Shown here: piece by piece, positions 10,303-22,813 of the stretch
Position numbering within the stretch: position 1 is the first letter of the stretch
Layout of the letters: each line of letters opens with the position of its first letter
Assembly (NCBI GenBank): GCA_902812365.1
Contig: CADDZC010000026.1
Coordinates: 1-46,694 of the forward strand
Direction of reading: 5' to 3'
Source of the DNA: Acidobacteriota bacterium
Lineage (GTDB): Bacteria; Acidobacteriota; Terriglobia; UBA7540
Length of the DNA stretch: 46,694 nucleotides
Translations under genes and position numbers: made by a program
Notes under the pieces: generated by a model
The model's input: the letters and a program-made list of their open reading frames with translations, nothing else
What the model was told of the DNA's origin: nothing
Database searches by the model: none

Positions 10303-11099
10303 AGCTGACGTTTCTTGGCACTGGCACGTCGACCGGCGTCCCGACGCTGGGCTGCCATTGCAAGGTCTGCACCTCCTCCGACCCCCGCGATAAGCGACTG
10401 CGGCCCTCCGTGGGGCTGGAATACGACGGCCGCTTTGTCGTGATCGACACCTCGCCCGACTTCCGCGAGCAGGCCATGCGGGAGAGGATCGAGCGGCTGG
10501 ACGCCGTCGTGTTCACCCATGATCACGTCGATCACGTTTTCGGCCTCGATGACGTTCGCGTTTTCTACTTCCGGCAGAAGGTCCCGATTCCGATCTATGC
10601 CGACCGCCGCACGATGCAAAGCATTCGGCGCATTTATCAACATATTTTCGACCAGACGTACCCATACGGCGGCATCGCCAAACTGGATCCGCATGTGATC
10701 GAGGGACCCTTCGAAGTGTGGGGCATGACGATGACTCCGCTGCCCGTCTGGCACGGAAATCTGCCCGTGCTGGGGTTTCGCTTTGGGCGGGCCGCCTATG
10801 TGACGGATTTTAGCACCATCCCCGATTCCACCTTGGCGCTGCTCGAAGGACTCGACGTCCTGATTCTCGACGCGCTGCGCCACCAGCCGCATCCGTCCCA
10901 TTCGACGCTAGAACAGTCGCTGGCCCTGGTCGAGAAGCTGAAGCCGCGCCGAGCCTTTTTCACCCACATCGCCCATGAGCTGGGTCATGCTGAGACGAAC
11001 GCCCTGCTGCCGCCCCACGTGCGATTGGCCTATGACGGGCTGAAGCTGGACCTCAAAGAGGAGGGCGCCCCGAGCCCGCCGTCGCCGGCGGCGGGGTGA
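10299..11099 (+). CDS. MBL-fold metal-dependent hydrolase (PhnP-like)
   Basis: This 266-residue protein has the metallo-beta-lactamase fold motif FTHDHVDHVFGLDD at about residues 71-84, where the HxHxDH set binds two metal ions, plus a later metal ligand in VWHGNLPVLGF and YVTDFS, and a C-terminal THIAHE. The N-terminus, FLGTGTSTGVPTLGCHCKVC, matches the PhnP/lipoyltransferase-linked hydrolase group; the Cys residues may bind a structural zinc as in PhnP. PhnP is a cyclic phosphodiesterase, but no phn genes are nearby, so the substrate here is open. Its start overlaps the stop of the DUF1844 gene. Confidence 0.9.
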   Translation: MKLTFLGTGTSTGVPTLGCHCKVCTSSDPRDKRLRPSVGLEYDGRFVVIDTSPDFREQAMRERIERLDAVVFTHDHVDHVFGLDDVRVFYFRQKVPIPIYADRRTMQSIRRIYQHIFDQTYPYGGIAKLDPHVIEGPFEVWGMTMTPLPVWHGNLPVLGFRFGRAAYVTDFSTIPDSTLALLEGLDVLILDALRHQPHPSHSTLEQSLALVEKLKPRRAFFTHIAHELGHAETNALLPPHVRLAYDGLKLDLKEEGAPSPPSPAAG

Positions 11100-11211
11100 A
11101 AAAGCGGACGAAAAAAAGTCGATTGTGGAAACAGGGGCCGGTCGGTCGAGCGGGAAGGCGTAACGGTGGGGTTGGGTGGCCGTCGAGTCTGGGCTTGGGT
11201 CGGCTTGCTGC

Positions 11212-12189
11212 ATGCGCGTGATTCGTGATCTCGATGAGCTGGTCGCTCCGGTTGAGACCGTCGTCACGATCGGCAACTTTGACGGCGTTCATGTGGCTCA
11301 CCAGGCCCTCCTGCGTGCCGTCGTGGAGCAGGCGCGGAGTTTGCGGGCGACCGCCGCGGCGATCACCTTCGATCCTCATCCGATGCGGTTGCTGGCGCCC
11401 GAACGGGCGCCGCAGTTGCTGACTCCGCTGGAAAAGAAGGCGGAGCTCATTGCCCAGTCCGGCGCCGAGCTTCTCGTCGTCCTCCCTTTTACACGGCAAC
11501 TGTCCGAGCGTTCGCCCGAAGAGTTCGTCACGCAGGTTCTGCGCGGCCGCTTGCACGCGCTTTCGGTGCACGTGGGTCCCAATTTTCGATTTGGACACGG
11601 GCAGAAGGGCGACGTTCAGTTGCTGGAGAAGCTGGCCCGCAGCGAAGGGTTTGAACTGCACGTGCTGCCGGCCATCGTGATCCGCGGCCAAGCGGTATCG
11701 AGTACGAGAATTCGCCAGCTCTTGTCCCTGGGGCAAGTCCACAAGGCGGCTCGGTTGCTGGGCCGCCCCTTTTCCGTGGGCGGGGAAGTTGTGGCCGGCT
11801 CGGGCCTCGGACGCGCCAAGACGGTGCCGACGCTCAATCTGGCGCCGGTCGATCAACAACTTCCCCGGAACGGCGTTTATGTCACCTGCACGCGGATTAC
11901 CGAGGCCCGTCACCCTTCGGTCACCAACGTCGGTTACAAGCCGACCTTCGGCGACCATCCGCTCACCGTGGAGTCTTTTCTCCTCGACGTGACGGGTGAT
12001 GCCCGCGCCGAAACCATGGAAATCGAATTTCTTTTCCGCTTGCGCGACGAGAAAAAGTTTCCCGACGCCGCGGCCCTGAAGGCGCAGATCATGCAAGATG
12101 TGCGGCGCGCCCGCCGCTACTTCCACCTGTGTGAACTTCTCTCCGCTGCCGGTTCGCGCCAGGAGGGCGGGAAGGTTCGGGCCTGCTGA
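11212..12189 (+). CDS. ribF: Bifunctional riboflavin kinase / FAD synthetase
   Basis: This 325-residue enzyme converts riboflavin to FMN and FMN to FAD. The N-terminal adenylyltransferase domain shows VTIGNFDGVHVAHQALL (the usual VHxGH is VHVAH here), ITFDPHP, HVGPNFRFGHGQKGD and the VSSTRIRQLLSLG segment. The C-terminal flavokinase domain begins at about residue 183 with GEVVAGSGLGRAKTVPTLNL, where the canonical GFPTANL is changed to TVPTLNL, and continues with RNGVYVT, TNVGYKPTFG and a normal C-terminus. I use the ATG at 11212; an upstream in-frame GTG (11176) adds a tail that does not fit the family. The ribosome site is weak. It converges on the DUF2752 gene. Confidence 0.93.
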   Translation: MRVIRDLDELVAPVETVVTIGNFDGVHVAHQALLRAVVEQARSLRATAAAITFDPHPMRLLAPERAPQLLTPLEKKAELIAQSGAELLVVLPFTRQLSERSPEEFVTQVLRGRLHALSVHVGPNFRFGHGQKGDVQLLEKLARSEGFELHVLPAIVIRGQAVSSTRIRQLLSLGQVHKAARLLGRPFSVGGEVVAGSGLGRAKTVPTLNLAPVDQQLPRNGVYVTCTRITEARHPSVTNVGYKPTFGDHPLTVESFLLDVTGDARAETMEIEFLFRLRDEKKFPDAAALKAQIMQDVRRARRYFHLCELLSAAGSRQEGGKVRAC

Positions 12190-17382: not shown

Positions 17383-18072
17383 ATGCGCGTTCTGATTGTG
17401 GAAGACGACGAGCCGGTTTCAAGATTTTTGCAAAGAGGGTTAGAGGCCGAGCACTATACGGCGGAGATCGTCGCCGACGGTGATCGCGCCCGGGCCCTCA
17501 CCGAGCAGCGAGAGTATGACTTGGTGATCTTGGACCTGAATCTGCCTGGGGTTGATGGGTTGGAGGTACTCAAGCATCTCCGGGCCAAGCGGGGATCGGT
17601 GCCGGTGCTGGCACTGACTTCGCGCCGGGAAGTCGAAGACCGAGTCAAGACGCTGGATTTAGGAGCGGACGATTACCTAGCCAAGCCTTTTGCCTTTGCC
17701 GAGCTTTCGGCCCGGGTCCGGGCGCTGATGCGGAGGGCGGCGCGGCCAGCCGATGTGGTGCTGCGGGTTGAGGACCTGGAACTGAATCGGGTGGAGCGCA
17801 CCGTCAAGCGCGGCAACAAGACGATCGAGCTGACTCCGAAGGAACTGGGGCTGCTGGAATACCTGATGCTCAACGCCGGGCGCTGTCTGACGCGGACGAT
17901 GATCCTGCAAAACGTCTGGAAAATGAACTCCGAGAGCGTGACCAACGTCGTCGACGTTTATGTGAACTACTTGCGCAAGAAAATCGACGAGGGGTTTGAC
18001 CGCAAATTAATTCACACGGTGCGGGGCGCGGGTTATCAAATCGGCGGAACGGCGGCGAAAGCCCATGCTTAA
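17383..18072 (+). CDS. OmpR/PhoB-family response regulator
   Basis: This 229-residue regulator has an intact receiver domain: acidic pair in VEDDE (residues 7-9), the phosphoacceptor in VILDLNLPGVDG (Asp at about 51), the Thr in LALTSRRE and the Lys in YLAKPF. A winged-helix DNA-binding domain follows (about 130-222), with ELTPKELGLLEYLMLNAGR, the recognition helix NVVDVYVNYLRKKID and IHTVRGAGYQI. Its stop overlaps the start of the kinase gene by eight bases. It is the first gene of the plus-strand run leading into the flagellar genes, but nothing proves it controls flagella. The start has only a weak ribosome site (GTAGGGAG, 10 bases off). Confidence 0.92.
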   Translation: MRVLIVEDDEPVSRFLQRGLEAEHYTAEIVADGDRARALTEQREYDLVILDLNLPGVDGLEVLKHLRAKRGSVPVLALTSRREVEDRVKTLDLGADDYLAKPFAFAELSARVRALMRRAARPADVVLRVEDLELNRVERTVKRGNKTIELTPKELGLLEYLMLNAGRCLTRTMILQNVWKMNSESVTNVVDVYVNYLRKKIDEGFDRKLIHTVRGAGYQIGGTAAKAHA

Positions 18073-18781
18073 GACGGCGGCCCCGGCGCGGGGCGAAGTT
18101 GACGCGCCAGGGGCAGAAGCGGCACGGTCTCCGGATTGGACGCTGAATGTACTCCGTGCGCTGCTCCATGAGATGAGCCAACCCTTAACCGCCCTGCAGG
18201 GAGAACTCGATCTGGCGCTCGCCGCCGACCCCGGGCGAGACTCCTGGCGCGCGGTTTTGCAGGCCTGTTGGGCCGAAACGGACCGATTGAGCGAACTGGT
18301 GCGTCGCGCTCGGGAGTTGGCGGAGCTCGAATGGTGCCCTCACCCGCGGGGTGAGGTTCGAGTGGCGGGGGTGGCGCGACTGGCGGTGGAGTCGCTCAGC
18401 CCGGTCGGTGCTTCCCATGGCGTCGGAATCCGGTTGGTCGTCGACCGGGAAGCGACGGTGACAGCCGTGCCGGAGGCGCTCGAGCGAACGGTGTGTAAGC
18501 TGGTCGAGCGGGCCATCGCCCGAAGTCCAAAGGGGGGCCAAATCCGGGTTGCTGTCGGCGTGTCTGGCGCCAGCGCCACGCTCGAGGTCGCAGACGAAGG
18601 GCCCTCTCCCGCGTTGCCCGACAGCCAGCGAGGGATTGACGCGCCGGGTTCCGGGTTCGAATGGGCCTACGCGAAGAGGTTCGCCGAGCGTTCGGGAGGC
18701 GCGCTGCGGATCGAAAAGGCCCACGGGCGCGGATGCGTGGTTAGGTTGTCCTTACCTCTGTTCCCCGAAATGAATCCCTAG
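18065..18781 (+). CDS. Histidine-kinase-like protein with degenerate ATP-binding domain
   Basis: This 238-residue protein lacks any sensor or membrane part. A dimerisation/phosphoacceptor helix is present (LLHEMSQPLTALQGELDLAL, with His35), and the rest resembles a HATPase domain. Several catalytic boxes are altered. The N box (CKLVERAIARSP) has Arg149 where the Mg-binding Asn is expected, and the G1 box reads DEGPS, ending in Ser rather than Gly. The G2 region is better kept (GSGFEWAYAKRFAERSGG). It may therefore bind ATP poorly and act mainly as a phosphatase or scaffold for the regulator encoded directly upstream. Translational coupling is likely because the genes overlap. I am confident in the family, less so about loss of activity. 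Confidence 0.8.
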   Translation: MLKTAAPARGEVDAPGAEAARSPDWTLNVLRALLHEMSQPLTALQGELDLALAADPGRDSWRAVLQACWAETDRLSELVRRARELAELEWCPHPRGEVRVAGVARLAVESLSPVGASHGVGIRLVVDREATVTAVPEALERTVCKLVERAIARSPKGGQIRVAVGVSGASATLEVADEGPSPALPDSQRGIDAPGSGFEWAYAKRFAERSGGALRIEKAHGRGCVVRLSLPLFPEMNP

Positions 18782-18894: not shown

Positions 18895-20157
18895 ATGCCG
18901 TCGTGGCGCTCCGACGATACTGGTCTGGTGGAGGAACCCGTGACCCTTGCGGCCACCGCGCGGTCGAGCCGCCGGTCATCCAGCATGTTAGTGGCAAGTT
19001 CGAACGCTGACGTTCGCCGGCAGCTGCTGCAGGTACTGAAGGCATGGAGTCGGTCTGTCGGCGAAGCGGCGGGGGGAGCGGAGGCTCTCGCCAAGCTGGA
19101 GGCCGAGCGCTCGGAAGTCCTGTTGCTGGACCGGCGACTATCTGACCTGGACGCCACCGAACTGCTGGCCACGATCCGGCGGCAACATCCTGATCTGGAA
19201 GTAGTTGTGTTCGATTCTCAAGGTGAAGAACCGATCCTCGCGGCCGGCTCCCGCGACTCATTCCACGGCGGTGCGATTCTCCGATTGCTGGAACAGATCG
19301 GCCAAGCTCCCCCTCACGTAGCCCAGCCGGAGAATTCGTTCACCTCGCTTGTTCAGGTTGGCACCCTCTCCAGGGCGGGCGCCGAACCGCTGCCCAACAT
19401 GATCGGGGCAAGCGAGGCCATGAAACAGGTCTATCGTTTGGCGCGTTTAGTGGCTCCCCGGAGCACGACCGTGCTGGTGAGCGGCGAAACGGGTACGGGC
19501 AAGGAACTGGTGGCGAGGGCCATTCACCTACTCGGCCCGCGTAGCAGTAAGCCGTTTATTACGGTCAATTGTGCAGCGATTCCGGAACCCTTACTGGAAG
19601 CGGAGCTGTTCGGCTACGCGCGCGGAGCCTTTACGGGGGCGTTTCAATCGCGCGTCGGGCGCATCCACGCCGCCCACGGCGGAACCTTGTTTCTCGACGA
19701 AGTGGGGGAACTGCCGCTCGGTATGCAGGCCAAGCTGCTGCGCTTCTTACAAGAGGGTGAGGTGCAGCGCCTGGGCAGCGCGGACATTGTCCGCGTGGAC
19801 GCTCGGGTGGTCGCCGCGACCAACGCGGATTTACTACAACGCGTTGAAAACAAAGTTGTTCGGGAAGATTTGTACTATCGCATCTCCGTGTTTCCTATCG
19901 ATATCCTGCCCCTGCGAAGCCGCCAGGAAGACATCCTGCCCCTCGGGATCCACTTCCTACATGCCTTTTGCCAGGAAGCCAGCGTTCCCGCCAAGAGCAT
20001 TTCGCCGGCAGCCCAAAGACTCCTTGAAGAGCACACCTGGCCCGGCAACGTGCGAGAATTGCGGCACGTCATGGAGCGCGCATTCATCTTGTCGGAGGAA
20101 TCCGACGTGATCCTTCCTCAGCACATCCGGCTCCACCCACACGGCAGTCTGAGATGA
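18895..20157 (+). CDS. Sigma-54-dependent activator lacking a DNA-binding domain (FlrA/FlgR-like)
   Basis: This 420-residue protein has an N-terminal receiver-like domain (about 31-135) and a complete AAA+ sigma-54 interaction domain: Walker A GETGTGKE (197-204), sigma-54-binding loop GAFTGA (244-249), Walker B GGTLFLDEVGE (262-272), and the WPGNVRELRHVMERAFIL segment (382-399). It ends 21 residues after that segment, so no Fis-type helix-turn-helix is present. The receiver is degenerate: the phospho-Asp site survives (LLLDRR, Asp79), but the acidic pair is SSN and the Thr/Lys pair is missing. This fits a flagellar master activator that works from solution, as FlgR of Helicobacter pylori (also HTH-less) does. 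The start could also be Met31 (18985). Its ATGA stop overlaps the next gene. Confidence 0.88.
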   Translation: MPSWRSDDTGLVEEPVTLAATARSSRRSSSMLVASSNADVRRQLLQVLKAWSRSVGEAAGGAEALAKLEAERSEVLLLDRRLSDLDATELLATIRRQHPDLEVVVFDSQGEEPILAAGSRDSFHGGAILRLLEQIGQAPPHVAQPENSFTSLVQVGTLSRAGAEPLPNMIGASEAMKQVYRLARLVAPRSTTVLVSGETGTGKELVARAIHLLGPRSSKPFITVNCAAIPEPLLEAELFGYARGAFTGAFQSRVGRIHAAHGGTLFLDEVGELPLGMQAKLLRFLQEGEVQRLGSADIVRVDARVVAATNADLLQRVENKVVREDLYYRISVFPIDILPLRSRQEDILPLGIHFLHAFCQEASVPAKSISPAAQRLLEEHTWPGNVRELRHVMERAFILSEESDVILPQHIRLHPHGSLR

Positions 20158-21488
20158 GGGAAATCTTATCGCAGGAGTCGGAAATTGGCCCATTCCATGC
20201 ACGTGACGGGAGCGGAATGTCCAACGTAACGACAGCGGGAGCCGTCACTCCGGGCCCGGAGGAGATCGCCGGTCTGGATCCTACGGCGTTGGTCCAGGCA
20301 TTCGAAACCTTTACCCAGGCGGCCGGGTCCCTGGAGAATTCTTATGCTCTCCTGCAAGCCGAAGTGGCGCGGCTCCGTCAGGAGTTGGAACGTAAGAACC
20401 GCGACCTCGCCGGTAGTCTGGCCGAGAACGAACGGATGCGCCTCTACCAGGAGCGCATTCTCGAGGGCCTGCCGTGCGGCGTCCTGGTTGTGGACCCTCG
20501 TTTTCGCTGGCGGTACGCGAACGCCAGTGCGCGTCACTTGCTGAGGCTGGACGGGCGGGCGCCCTTCCGGGCTGAGCCCATCGTCCCGTCGGAGCTCAGG
20601 CGACTGCTGGAAGATGCCGTTCTGGCCGGAGCGGGAGCCGAGCGGGTGTGGTCGCAGGGCGAGGCGGAAGACTCTTGCACCCTCGGCGTCACCTGCGCGA
20701 TTTTGCCCCAGGATGGCGTCTCGCGCGGCGATTTCGTCTTCATCCTGCGCGATATGACGCAGCAACGGCGTCTTGAAAAGGAGCGTGAGTTTGCCCGACG
20801 GATGCAAGCGCTCGCCGAAATGACCGCTCTGCTGGCTCACGAGATTCGCAATCCTCTGGGCAGCATGGAGCTGTTCGCGAGCCTGATCAAAGAAGCCACG
20901 CTCGATGAGCCGGAGGTGTCGCAATGGGTGATGCACCTGCAAGCGGGACTGCGTGCCTTATCGGCCACCGTGAACAACGTGCTCCACTTTTACAGCCAAG
21001 CCACGCCGCAAACGGTGTCCCTCGATCTGGTGCGCTTGCTTTCCGACACGATCCAGTTTCTGCAGCCGCTGGCTTTGCAACGCAGCCTGGGAATTGAACT
21101 GGCCAGCCCAGCCCGCGAAATCATGGTGCAAGCTGACCCGCACCGTCTGCAGCAGGTGTTTTTCAACCTGGCGATCAACGGTTTCCGCGCCATGTCGGCC
21201 GGGGGGGTGATGACCGTTCGCGTGGTCGTCGACGATCAGGCGGATAGCACCTGGGCCGGTATCGAGTTTGAAGATCAAGGCCCGGGAATTTCAGCCGAAA
21301 ACCTGGAAAGGATTTTCGAGGCGGGCTTCACGACCCATCGCGGGAGCCCGGGTTTAGGCTTAGCGGTGTGCAAGCGACTCGTTGAACAACACGGGGGGAC
21401 GCTGACCGTGGAAAGTATTCTGGGCCGCGGCACCATTTTCCGGGTGAACCTTCCCCGTCAGCGAGGTGCGCCGGGGAGTCATCGATGA
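20154..21488 (+). CDS. flrB: PAS-domain sensor histidine kinase (FlrB/FleS-like)
   Basis: This 444-residue soluble kinase has a coiled-coil start (about 45-100), a PAS domain (100-200), and a complete kinase core: LLAHEIRNPLGSMELF with His229 and the HATPase boxes VFFNLAINGFRAM, FEDQGPGIS and GLGLAVCKRLVEQHGG. No membrane segment is seen, as in the FleS/FlrB family, which senses the state of basal-body assembly in polar flagellates. It starts at the ATG that overlaps the previous stop (ATGA, 20154-20157); an in-frame ATG at 20217 with GGGAG just upstream is an alternative. Its C-terminus overlaps the start of the regulator by four bases, as expected for a kinase/regulator pair. Confidence 0.88.
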   Translation: MREILSQESEIGPFHARDGSGMSNVTTAGAVTPGPEEIAGLDPTALVQAFETFTQAAGSLENSYALLQAEVARLRQELERKNRDLAGSLAENERMRLYQERILEGLPCGVLVVDPRFRWRYANASARHLLRLDGRAPFRAEPIVPSELRRLLEDAVLAGAGAERVWSQGEAEDSCTLGVTCAILPQDGVSRGDFVFILRDMTQQRRLEKEREFARRMQALAEMTALLAHEIRNPLGSMELFASLIKEATLDEPEVSQWVMHLQAGLRALSATVNNVLHFYSQATPQTVSLDLVRLLSDTIQFLQPLALQRSLGIELASPAREIMVQADPHRLQQVFFNLAINGFRAMSAGGVMTVRVVVDDQADSTWAGIEFEDQGPGISAENLERIFEAGFTTHRGSPGLGLAVCKRLVEQHGGTLTVESILGRGTIFRVNLPRQRGAPGSHR

Positions 21489-22813
21489 GAAACGTACTCG
21501 TGGTTGATGACGAGGTGGGCATGCGAGCGGCCCTCGAGGCGAACTTCCGCCACCAAGGTTGGGCGGTGCGAACCGCGGGCGGCAAGAACGAGGCGGTCGC
21601 GCTTTTCCGGGCGGCGCCTTGCCCGCTGGTGGTTACAGACATGCGCATGCCCGACGGAGATGGGATTGAAGTCATGAACAGTGTTCGGGCCATCGCTCCG
21701 GAAACGGTCGTGATTCTCCTGACGGCGTTCGGCAACGTTCCCGACGCGGTGACGGCGATGAAGGGCGGTGCGTTCGACTACCTGATCAAGCCCGTGGCTT
21801 TCGACCAGTTGAAAGACGCCGCCCTGCGGGCGCTCGCGGCTCGCGACGGTGAGGAGACAGGCGGGACCACCGAAAGCCGCCTGATCGGCAGTGCTCCGAG
21901 ATTTCGCCGGGTCGTGGAGCGGGCGCAACAGATCGCCCGCAGCGAGGCCGACGTCCTGATCGAGGCCGAAAGCGGTACCGGCAAGGAGCTGCTGGCCCGG
22001 TACATTCACCGGGCCAGCGCGCGCTCCGCCGGCCCTTTCGTCGCCGTCAACTGCGCGGCATTTCCCGAGAACCTGCTGGAAAGCGAGCTGTTCGGGCATG
22101 TGCGCGGAGCCTTTACCGGGGCCACGGCCACCAAGCCGGGAAAATTTGAGCTGGCCAACGGCGGCACGCTTCTGCTCGACGAAATTGGGGAAATGCCGCT
22201 TAGCCTCCAGCCCAAGCTCCTGCGCGTGATCCAAGAGCGCGAGGTCGATCGGCTGGGCGATACGCGATCGGTGCCGGTCAGTGTGCGCGTCATTGCCACC
22301 ACCAACCGGTCGCTGCGTGATCTGGTTCGCGAGGGCAAGTTTCGGTTGGATCTTTATTACCGCCTGAACGTCATACCGCTCGGCATTCCGCCGCTGCGCG
22401 AGCATCCCGAAGACATTCCGGAACTCGTCGAACACTTTATCGGCAAGTATGCACCCCGGCGGTCGGGTCCGGTGGTGCGTTTTGCGCCGGAGTTACTCTT
22501 GCGGATGCGCGCCTATGACTGGCCGGGCAATGTTCGCGAGCTCGAAAACTTCGTCCGACGCGCGTTGGCTTTGTCGCCGACACCGGTGATGGGCCTTGAG
22601 GTGATGGACGGCATCCAGTCCCCGGCCAGTGCGCCGCCGAAGAATGTCTTCGAAGCCGGCCTGACCCTGCGCGAGGCCGAAAAACAACTCCTCGCCACAA
22701 CGCTCGAAGCCACGGGCGGGAACCGAACCCGGGCGGCGGAGCTGTTAGGGGTCAGCCTGCGGACTATCCGCAACAAAATTCGGGAGTATGGACTCCCGAG
22801 AAAGGAGGCGTGA
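21485..22813 (+). CDS. flrC: NtrC-family sigma-54 response regulator (FlrC/FleR-like)
   Basis: This 442-residue regulator has an intact receiver (VVDDE at 7-10, Asp52 in VTDMRMPDGDG, Thr80, Lys102), an AAA+ sigma-54 interaction domain (AESGTGKE at 161-168; GAFTGA at 208-213; LLLDEIGE) and a C-terminal Fis-type HTH (GGNRTRAAELLGVSLRTIRN). The Walker A begins with Ala rather than the usual Gly (AESGTGKE), which is uncommon but not fatal. It pairs with the upstream kinase and precedes flgB. In the FlrABC/FleQSR scheme the third component drives late basal-body and hook genes from sigma-54 promoters. I saw no clear -24/-12 element nearby, so that role is inference. Confidence 0.92.
   Translation: MRNVLVVDDEVGMRAALEANFRHQGWAVRTAGGKNEAVALFRAAPCPLVVTDMRMPDGDGIEVMNSVRAIAPETVVILLTAFGNVPDAVTAMKGGAFDYLIKPVAFDQLKDAALRALAARDGEETGGTTESRLIGSAPRFRRVVERAQQIARSEADVLIEAESGTGKELLARYIHRASARSAGPFVAVNCAAFPENLLESELFGHVRGAFTGATATKPGKFELANGGTLLLDEIGEMPLSLQPKLLRVIQEREVDRLGDTRSVPVSVRVIATTNRSLRDLVREGKFRLDLYYRLNVIPLGIPPLREHPEDIPELVEHFIGKYAPRRSGPVVRFAPELLLRMRAYDWPGNVRELENFVRRALALSPTPVMGLEVMDGIQSPASAPPKNVFEAGLTLREAEKQLLATTLEATGGNRTRAAELLGVSLRTIRNKIREYGLPRKEA

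Follow-up and report, generated by a model that had tools for sequence, protein, structure and literature searches.

In Caulobacter, ChpT joins a DHp hairpin that bears a phospho-accepting His to a CA-like domain whose ATP site has decayed; it acts in a cell-cycle and flagellar setting, and its partner CtrA is an OmpR-type regulator. Phosphotransfer in ChpT, as in Spo0B and PhyT, runs through the His (PMC5898713, PMC3433190 and PMC9981736, excerpts). Spo0B of Bacillus is a hairpin dimer phosphotransferase that has been likened to a degenerated kinase (PMC5898713 and PMC3433190, excerpts), and PhyT, Spo0B and ChpT have been grouped as phosphotransferases resembling degenerated kinases (PMC5898713, excerpt). 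In Sphingomonas melonis, PhyT/PhyP has a degenerate ATPase domain, retains the DHp His and is encoded at the locus of its regulator (PMC5898713, excerpt). DivL, a Caulobacter pseudokinase, keeps a kinase fold without kinase activity, and has PAS domains in front and a Tyr where the His should be.

We analysed a locus of an Acidobacteriota bacterium with features of these systems. The window, which is the whole stretch of DNA analysed (46,694 nt, contig CADDZC010000026.1), belongs to a genome of 3.5 Mb in 123 contigs and encodes an OmpR/CopR-type response regulator followed by a 238-aa kinase-like protein at 18065-18781, labelled HKx here (Table 1). The short overlap of the two genes would couple their translation, and of the 41 relatives in which the two genes share a contig, 17 have a 4-nt ATGA or GTGA overlap. 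Downstream lie a PAS histidine kinase and two sigma-54 regulators, of which the NtrC/FlrC-like one is likely the partner of the PAS kinase, and then frames read as flgB, flgC, fliE, fliF and fliG, in an order also seen in relatives. We take this kinase and the sigma-54 regulators to follow the plan of the FlrB/FlrC and FleS/FleR cascades, and as far as we know those cascades do not pair an OmpR-type regulator with a degenerate HisKA protein. The FleQ-like protein has a weak REC match (36.8 bits) without the acidic pair, as read by eye, and no recognised C-terminal HTH, so it is an activator without an obvious DNA-binding domain.

Table 1. Features of the regulator-HKx locus, in positions of the window (residue numbers are those of the respective protein)
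Feature	Position	Strand	Basis
OmpR/CopR-type response regulator, 229 aa	17383..18072	+	Response_reg 103.8 bits, Trans_reg_C 92.7 bits
Phospho-Asp51 of regulator	17533-17535	+	
HKx, 238-aa protein of HisKA origin with degenerate CA domain	18065..18781	+	Pfam, AF2, residues
8-nt overlap, regulator stop / HKx start	18065..18072	+	
DHp helical hairpin of HKx, helices 17-54 and 58-90	18113..18334	+	AF2 model md000a79a6b71
H box, residues 31-48, with Gln39 and Pro40	18155..18208	+	Family conservation
Phospho-acceptor His35 of HKx	18167-18169	+	
CA-like alpha/beta domain, residues 96-232	18350..18760	+	AF2; matched by HK CA domain structures
Ruined N box, residues 138-158	18476..18538	+	Alignments
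Arg149 at N-box Asn position	18509-18511	+	
G1 box remnant D-E-G-P-S, residues 177-181	18593..18607	+	
G2 remnant GSGFEW, residues 195-200	18647..18664	+	
FleQ-like sigma-54 activator with weak REC	18895..20157	+	Pfam
PAS histidine kinase, N box intact (NLAINGFRA)	20154..21488	+	Pfam, alignment
NtrC/FlrC-like sigma-54 response regulator	21485..22813	+	Pfam

In Pfam, HKx gives weak matches that still clear the cut-offs: 28.8 bits for HisKA (cut-off 26.9) and 35.0 bits for HATPase_c (cut-off 26.4). It has no sensor domain in Pfam down to E 1, as originally predicted. The H box is sound, with H35, E36 (the acid after the His), Q39 and P40 all present. In the G1 box D177 and G179 are retained and S181 stands where Gly is required, and the GxG of the G2 box is broken. 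Hence, the residues bear out the original prediction of a kinase-like protein with a good phospho-His helix, Arg for the N-box Asn and a G1 box ending in Ser. Realignment was to be checked as a way of restoring the Asn, and this is impossible because HKx has Asn only at residues 28 and 237. Among the 33 HATPase_c domains found in the window's own genome, HKx alone lacks the N-box Asn; the Asn was read by eye in the other 32 (30 in one alignment, 2 in another), at least three of which look GyrB-, MutL- or anti-sigma-like rather than histidine kinases. A sequencing or assembly error as the cause was ruled out, since the loss is common to the whole HKx family. These residues would almost certainly rule out ATP-dependent autophosphorylation by HKx.

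The AF2 model of HKx (pLDDT 84.2, pTM 0.77, from a 19-sequence alignment) shows a DHp hairpin and a CA-like fold from residue 17 on, with low confidence at residues 186-190 in the lid region. The best structural matches, among the matches listed, are the ordinary HisKA kinases 4kp4 (Z 19.9) and 7zp0 (Z 19.7), with DivL 4q20 close behind (Z 18.1, 207 aligned residues, rmsd 5.5, 20% identity). Neither ChpT nor Spo0B is among the best 50 matches listed, which carries no weight.

We collected 43 HKx proteins, all within one class (Terriglobia): 24 from the GTDB family of the window and 19 from elsewhere. Because the profiles used to collect them were whole-length or DHp ones, forms without the His may be under-represented. 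All but two, which lie at contig ends (L054, L124), were seen adjoining an orthologous regulator (41 of 43). Within the GTDB family, 23 of the 39 genomes have HKx at 180 bits or more; a clear gap follows, and the next match (G005, 130 bits) is a further member, giving 24 of 39. A class-wide search matched 75 of 399 genomes at E <= 1e-33, many of them in frames of about 450-930 aa; three such long-frame or outgroup loci (L128, L200, L201) were inspected, found to encode ordinary kinases and left out of the counts. A phylum-wide search (E <= 1e-38) matched 9 of 396 genomes, one of them that of the window, and the seven matches listed besides the window and G137 lie in frames of 466-518 aa. A contig-level scan gave 14 loci, 11 of them at 23-33% identity.

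Identity to the window is 53-67% for the regulator (alignment A2) and 22-38% for HKx (alignment A1), and conservation in HKx is concentrated around the His: H35 and Q39 are present in all 43 proteins, P40 in 42, and T42 and L44 in 40 each. Gln at the latter invariant position, H+4, also occurs in FixL-type kinases. When the 210 columns are ordered by conservation (n=43), H35 and Q39 come first and the N-box column is at index 207. The N-box Asn is found in only three members (L117, L118, L122), with an Asn one column away in three more (L047, L167, L183), and N together with DxGxG in one (L118). The acid at H+1 is kept in nine members, the window protein among them, and is replaced by Arg in 16. 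Hence, the original reading of HKx as a non-kinase is well supported and much strengthened by the family-wide loss of ATP-site residues.

HKx has the marks of a DHp-type phosphotransferase, namely a hairpin with a conserved His and a degenerate CA domain, and it resembles the described systems in different ways. It has the architecture of ChpT, and its partner is of the same class as CtrA. Unlike ChpT, it scores as HisKA plus HATPase_c (the ChpT family model PF10090 gives only 15.0 bits, cut-off 22.9), occurs in Acidobacteriota and has no known hybrid donor kinase. With PhyT/PhyP it shares the degenerate ATPase domain, the retained His, the location beside the regulator and, in the 16 members noted above, the Arg at H+1; PhyT differs in its predicted membrane anchor and HRxxN motif, where HKx has HxxxQP and no sensor domain. 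The likeness to Spo0B lies in the hairpin, whose dimer is only predicted for HKx; the Spo0B Pfam model is not among the HKx matches to E 1, and the gene context differs. Like DivL, HKx appears from its residues to have a kinase fold without kinase activity.

The adjacent regulator is intact, as had been claimed: the acid pocket, Asp51, Thr79 and Lys101 of the REC domain are present and both Response_reg and Trans_reg_C are matched, which makes it an OmpR/PhoB-type protein. A class-wide search for this regulator (E <= 1e-100) found 63 places in 62 of 399 genomes. We inspected the surroundings of all 63 and found HKx at 40 (including a bare hairpin, L180), a second hairpin at one (L185, found later and outside the 43 collected proteins) and none detected at 22; the HKx proteins of L054, L122 and L124 lie outside this list. 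Hence, HKx is dispensable to the regulator at those 22 places.

The members form a graded series. The ATP site is complete in L118 (G046), which has Gln at H+1. The change from the H+1 acid to Gln abolished kinase activity in CrdS (PMC3510030, excerpt), so L118 may not be an active kinase; with its ATP site complete, it hints that the acid after the His may have been lost first. The N box is kept and the G boxes are lost in L117 and L122, and the CA domain is fully degenerate in the window HKx and most other members. Two loci have only the hairpin. The L180 protein (94 aa) is encoded in a flagellar operon of a one-contig genome, and its AF2 model has helices at residues 2-36 and 41-70 (block pLDDT 86-91 for residues 11-70). 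The L185 protein has 62 aa, counted from an ATG that overlaps the regulator stop, and matches the DHp profile at 43 bits. No frameshifted gene or hidden CA remnant was found in any frame beside L180 or L185, nor at the remaining loci without HKx; there the CA profile matched separate full-length kinases only, and a control (L172) was recovered at 103 bits. A sensitive DHp search left 28 of the 29 regulator loci without annotated HKx still empty, L185 being the 29th; the 28 comprise the 22 places of the class search and six more, with five of these six in one paralogue clade. On the regulator tree, L110 with HKx and L112 without it are sisters (SH-aLRT 98), which places a loss within one genus. 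The five HKx states need at least 15 changes on this quick tree, in which many deep forks are unresolved.

The gene does not appear to be dead. We found dN/dS of 0.15-0.41 for HKx in 11 of 11 close pairs (Nei-Gojobori, own script), with synonymous sites near saturation in some pairs; the regulator has 0.01-0.29 in the same pairs. By part, the hairpin has 0.07-0.30 and the CA domain 0.10-0.48 (one pair undefined). Hence, the HKx reading frame is maintained. The dN of HKx is at least three times that of the regulator in nine of the 11 pairs; in the exceptions (L044/L049, L043/L048) the regulator frames have mechanical N-terminal extensions that possibly inflate dN. As judged from the sequences, then, HKx has kept its phospho-His helix and lost its ATP-site residues, its regulator is intact, and the pair is conserved under purifying selection.

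Since HKx should be unable to autophosphorylate, the phosphate of the regulator should come from elsewhere. This part of the original prediction is supported by the missing ATP-site residues and by the phospho-Asp, retained at 22 of the 23 non-paralogue loci where the regulator stands without HKx. The D8 of the acid pocket is replaced in four of these 23 (Ser twice, Gly and Ala once each; e.g. L186, L191, L195), a hint that some of these regulators may function independently of phosphorylation. Relaxation of the docking helix in HKx-less regulators was considered and rejected: the identity of alpha1 to the consensus falls from 0.70 to 0.56, and the effect is not specific because the entire HKx-less regulator diverges too (REC 0.74 vs 0.64).

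The PAS kinase, which had been named as the possible donor, does not hold as a general one. Its orthologue (E <= 1e-60) occurs in 13 of the 39 GTDB-family genomes vs 24 with HKx, and ten genomes have the pair with neither this orthologue nor FlhA (G003, G006, G007, G010, G019, G022, G023, G028, G029, G032). The listed completeness is 90% or more for six of these ten, absence from incomplete genomes being weak evidence. An obligate flagellar function of the pair is ruled out by the same ten genomes; in flagellate members the PAS kinase may still be a donor. Possible donors in the window's own genome are receiver-bearing hybrid kinases (four of the six proteins scanned), and the genome also encodes three Hpt domains. 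Across the loci, no donor receiver consistently adjoins the pair. Nine loci (L052, L053 at 10792-11868, L055, L119, L122, L123, L125, L167, L169) have a REC-HD-GYP gene in divergent orientation to the regulator, but it was rejected as a fixed partner receiver because the closest copy of the window is on another contig. More distant copies occur in L195 and L197, and within the GTDB family high-identity copies (77-100%) are confined to genus g3.

Eight loci without flagellar neighbours (L042, L044-L047, L049, L051, L056) have a kinase/NtrC-like pair and/or a FliA/WhiG-type sigma factor nearby, domains that Pfam confirmed at L042 and L056 alone; L043 and L048 have neither. The sigma factor lies downstream of HKx in seven (L042, L044, L046, L047, L049, L051, L056), with no FlhA match, so that these genomes apparently have a flagellar-type sigma factor without flagella. 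No common DNA motif was found upstream of the regulator: the best gapped pair occurs in 7 of 42 regions (47 minus five near-duplicates) vs at most 6 in five shuffles, and a strict sigma-28 promoter pattern occurs in 2 of 47 regions, which is not significant (shuffled mean 0.34, maximum 4). The element GCCGAAATA is present in 9 of 21 GTDB-family upstream regions (L042, L043, L045, L048, L050, L053, L057, L123, L125), in several of which a TMAWCTTT-like element was seen by eye 12 nt before it. Together they resemble what we take to be a sigma-28/WhiG promoter. The GCCGAAATA element was not found upstream of the window's regulator.

Our preferred reading, to which we give an even chance, is that HKx is a HisKA kinase that has passed beyond ATP use and now serves as an ATP-independent DHp phosphotransfer partner of the adjacent regulator. 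HKx would dimerise through its DHp hairpin; His35 would take a phosphoryl group from a receiver, be it that of a hybrid kinase, of a response regulator elsewhere or of the adjacent regulator in reverse; and His35 and Asp51 of the regulator would exchange it. The CA-like domain would be a leftover or at most a docking aid, since two loci have dropped it, and the regulator would then act on putative flagellar, sigma-54 or sigma-28 regulatory loci. For the HisKA kinases examined, kinase activity alone depends on the acid after the His and phosphatase activity alone on Thr/Asn at H+4; CrdS N375Q, changed at H+4, has no measurable phosphatase activity and about 40% less kinase activity (PMC3510030, excerpt). 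HKx has lost the ATP site and mostly the kinase acid and has Gln in place of the classical H+4 phosphatase residue, while its His is intact, so phosphotransfer via the His, as in Spo0B, ChpT and PhyT, is what remains.

The original prediction proposed a phosphatase or scaffold and omitted a histidine phosphotransferase, which fits the invariant His better; its phosphatase stands as the main rival. Here HKx would dock on the regulator and strip its phosphate, added by another kinase or by acetyl phosphate, and we consider this possible if rather unlikely. A removable brake would fit the lineages that have lost HKx and retain the regulator, changing the H+1 acid spares phosphatase activity in CrdS, HK853, HK4262 and HK1190 (PMC3510030, excerpt), FixL-based chimeras show net phosphatase activity (PMC11164954, excerpt), and PhyP/PhyT was initially read as a phosphatase (PMC5898713, excerpt). 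Against this, the Gln at H+4 in 43 of 43 members is the change that left CrdS N375Q without measurable phosphatase activity, and the PhyT tested in the excerpt of PMC5898713 had none. The His itself speaks both ways: CrdS H371A barely mattered (half-life 2.6 vs 0.7 min), but PleC H610A lost phosphatase activity too (both PMC3510030, excerpt), so an invariant His is no proof of phosphotransfer.

A DivL-like adaptor, in which HKx would serve the regulator as a docking or sensing platform that works independently of phosphorylation, is improbable: DivL, a repurposed pseudokinase (PMC4211667, excerpt), is among the best structural matches, but ordinary kinases match equally well or better, and DivL has Tyr where 43 of 43 HKx proteins have His. 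Neutral decay, with HKx as a kinase in the course of being lost and no longer under selection for any function, would explain the graded series from a complete ATP site through a degenerate CA domain and a bare hairpin to none; the open frames, the dN/dS values of all 11 pairs and the invariance of His and Gln despite the low identity among HKx proteins make it quite improbable. We regard as very improbable a cryptic kinase that still binds ATP through other residues and phosphorylates the regulator. The window HKx does retain E36, D177 and G179, but its N-box, G1 and G2 residues are degenerate, the H+1 acid is gone from most relatives, the whole CA domain is absent at two loci, and an N-box change (N482K) served as the kinase-dead control in CrdS (PMC3510030, excerpt).

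HKx is apparently an undescribed branch of a known protein type, and its record of decay is unusually complete; no description of the family was found in the open-access literature, which leaves subscription journals aside. Automatic annotation may label HKx a sensor kinase, as both Pfam cut-offs are passed, and yet ATP use is improbable. We suggest tentatively, as the less probable view, that the Terriglobia hold a separately evolved class of DHp phosphotransferases, derived from a HisKA kinase whose CA domain has eroded stepwise beside a slower-changing regulator. The pair would have become a branch point, through which distant receivers feed into gene control of the flagellar and sigma-28 type. 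We would then know of no self-assembling His phosphotransfer protein smaller than the bare hairpins of 62-94 aa. How a two-component system becomes a phosphorelay is mostly deduced from end products such as Spo0B and ChpT. In this family, complete, half-ruined, hairpin-only and absent partners stand beside orthologous regulators, and hence the order of loss may be tested in living relatives.
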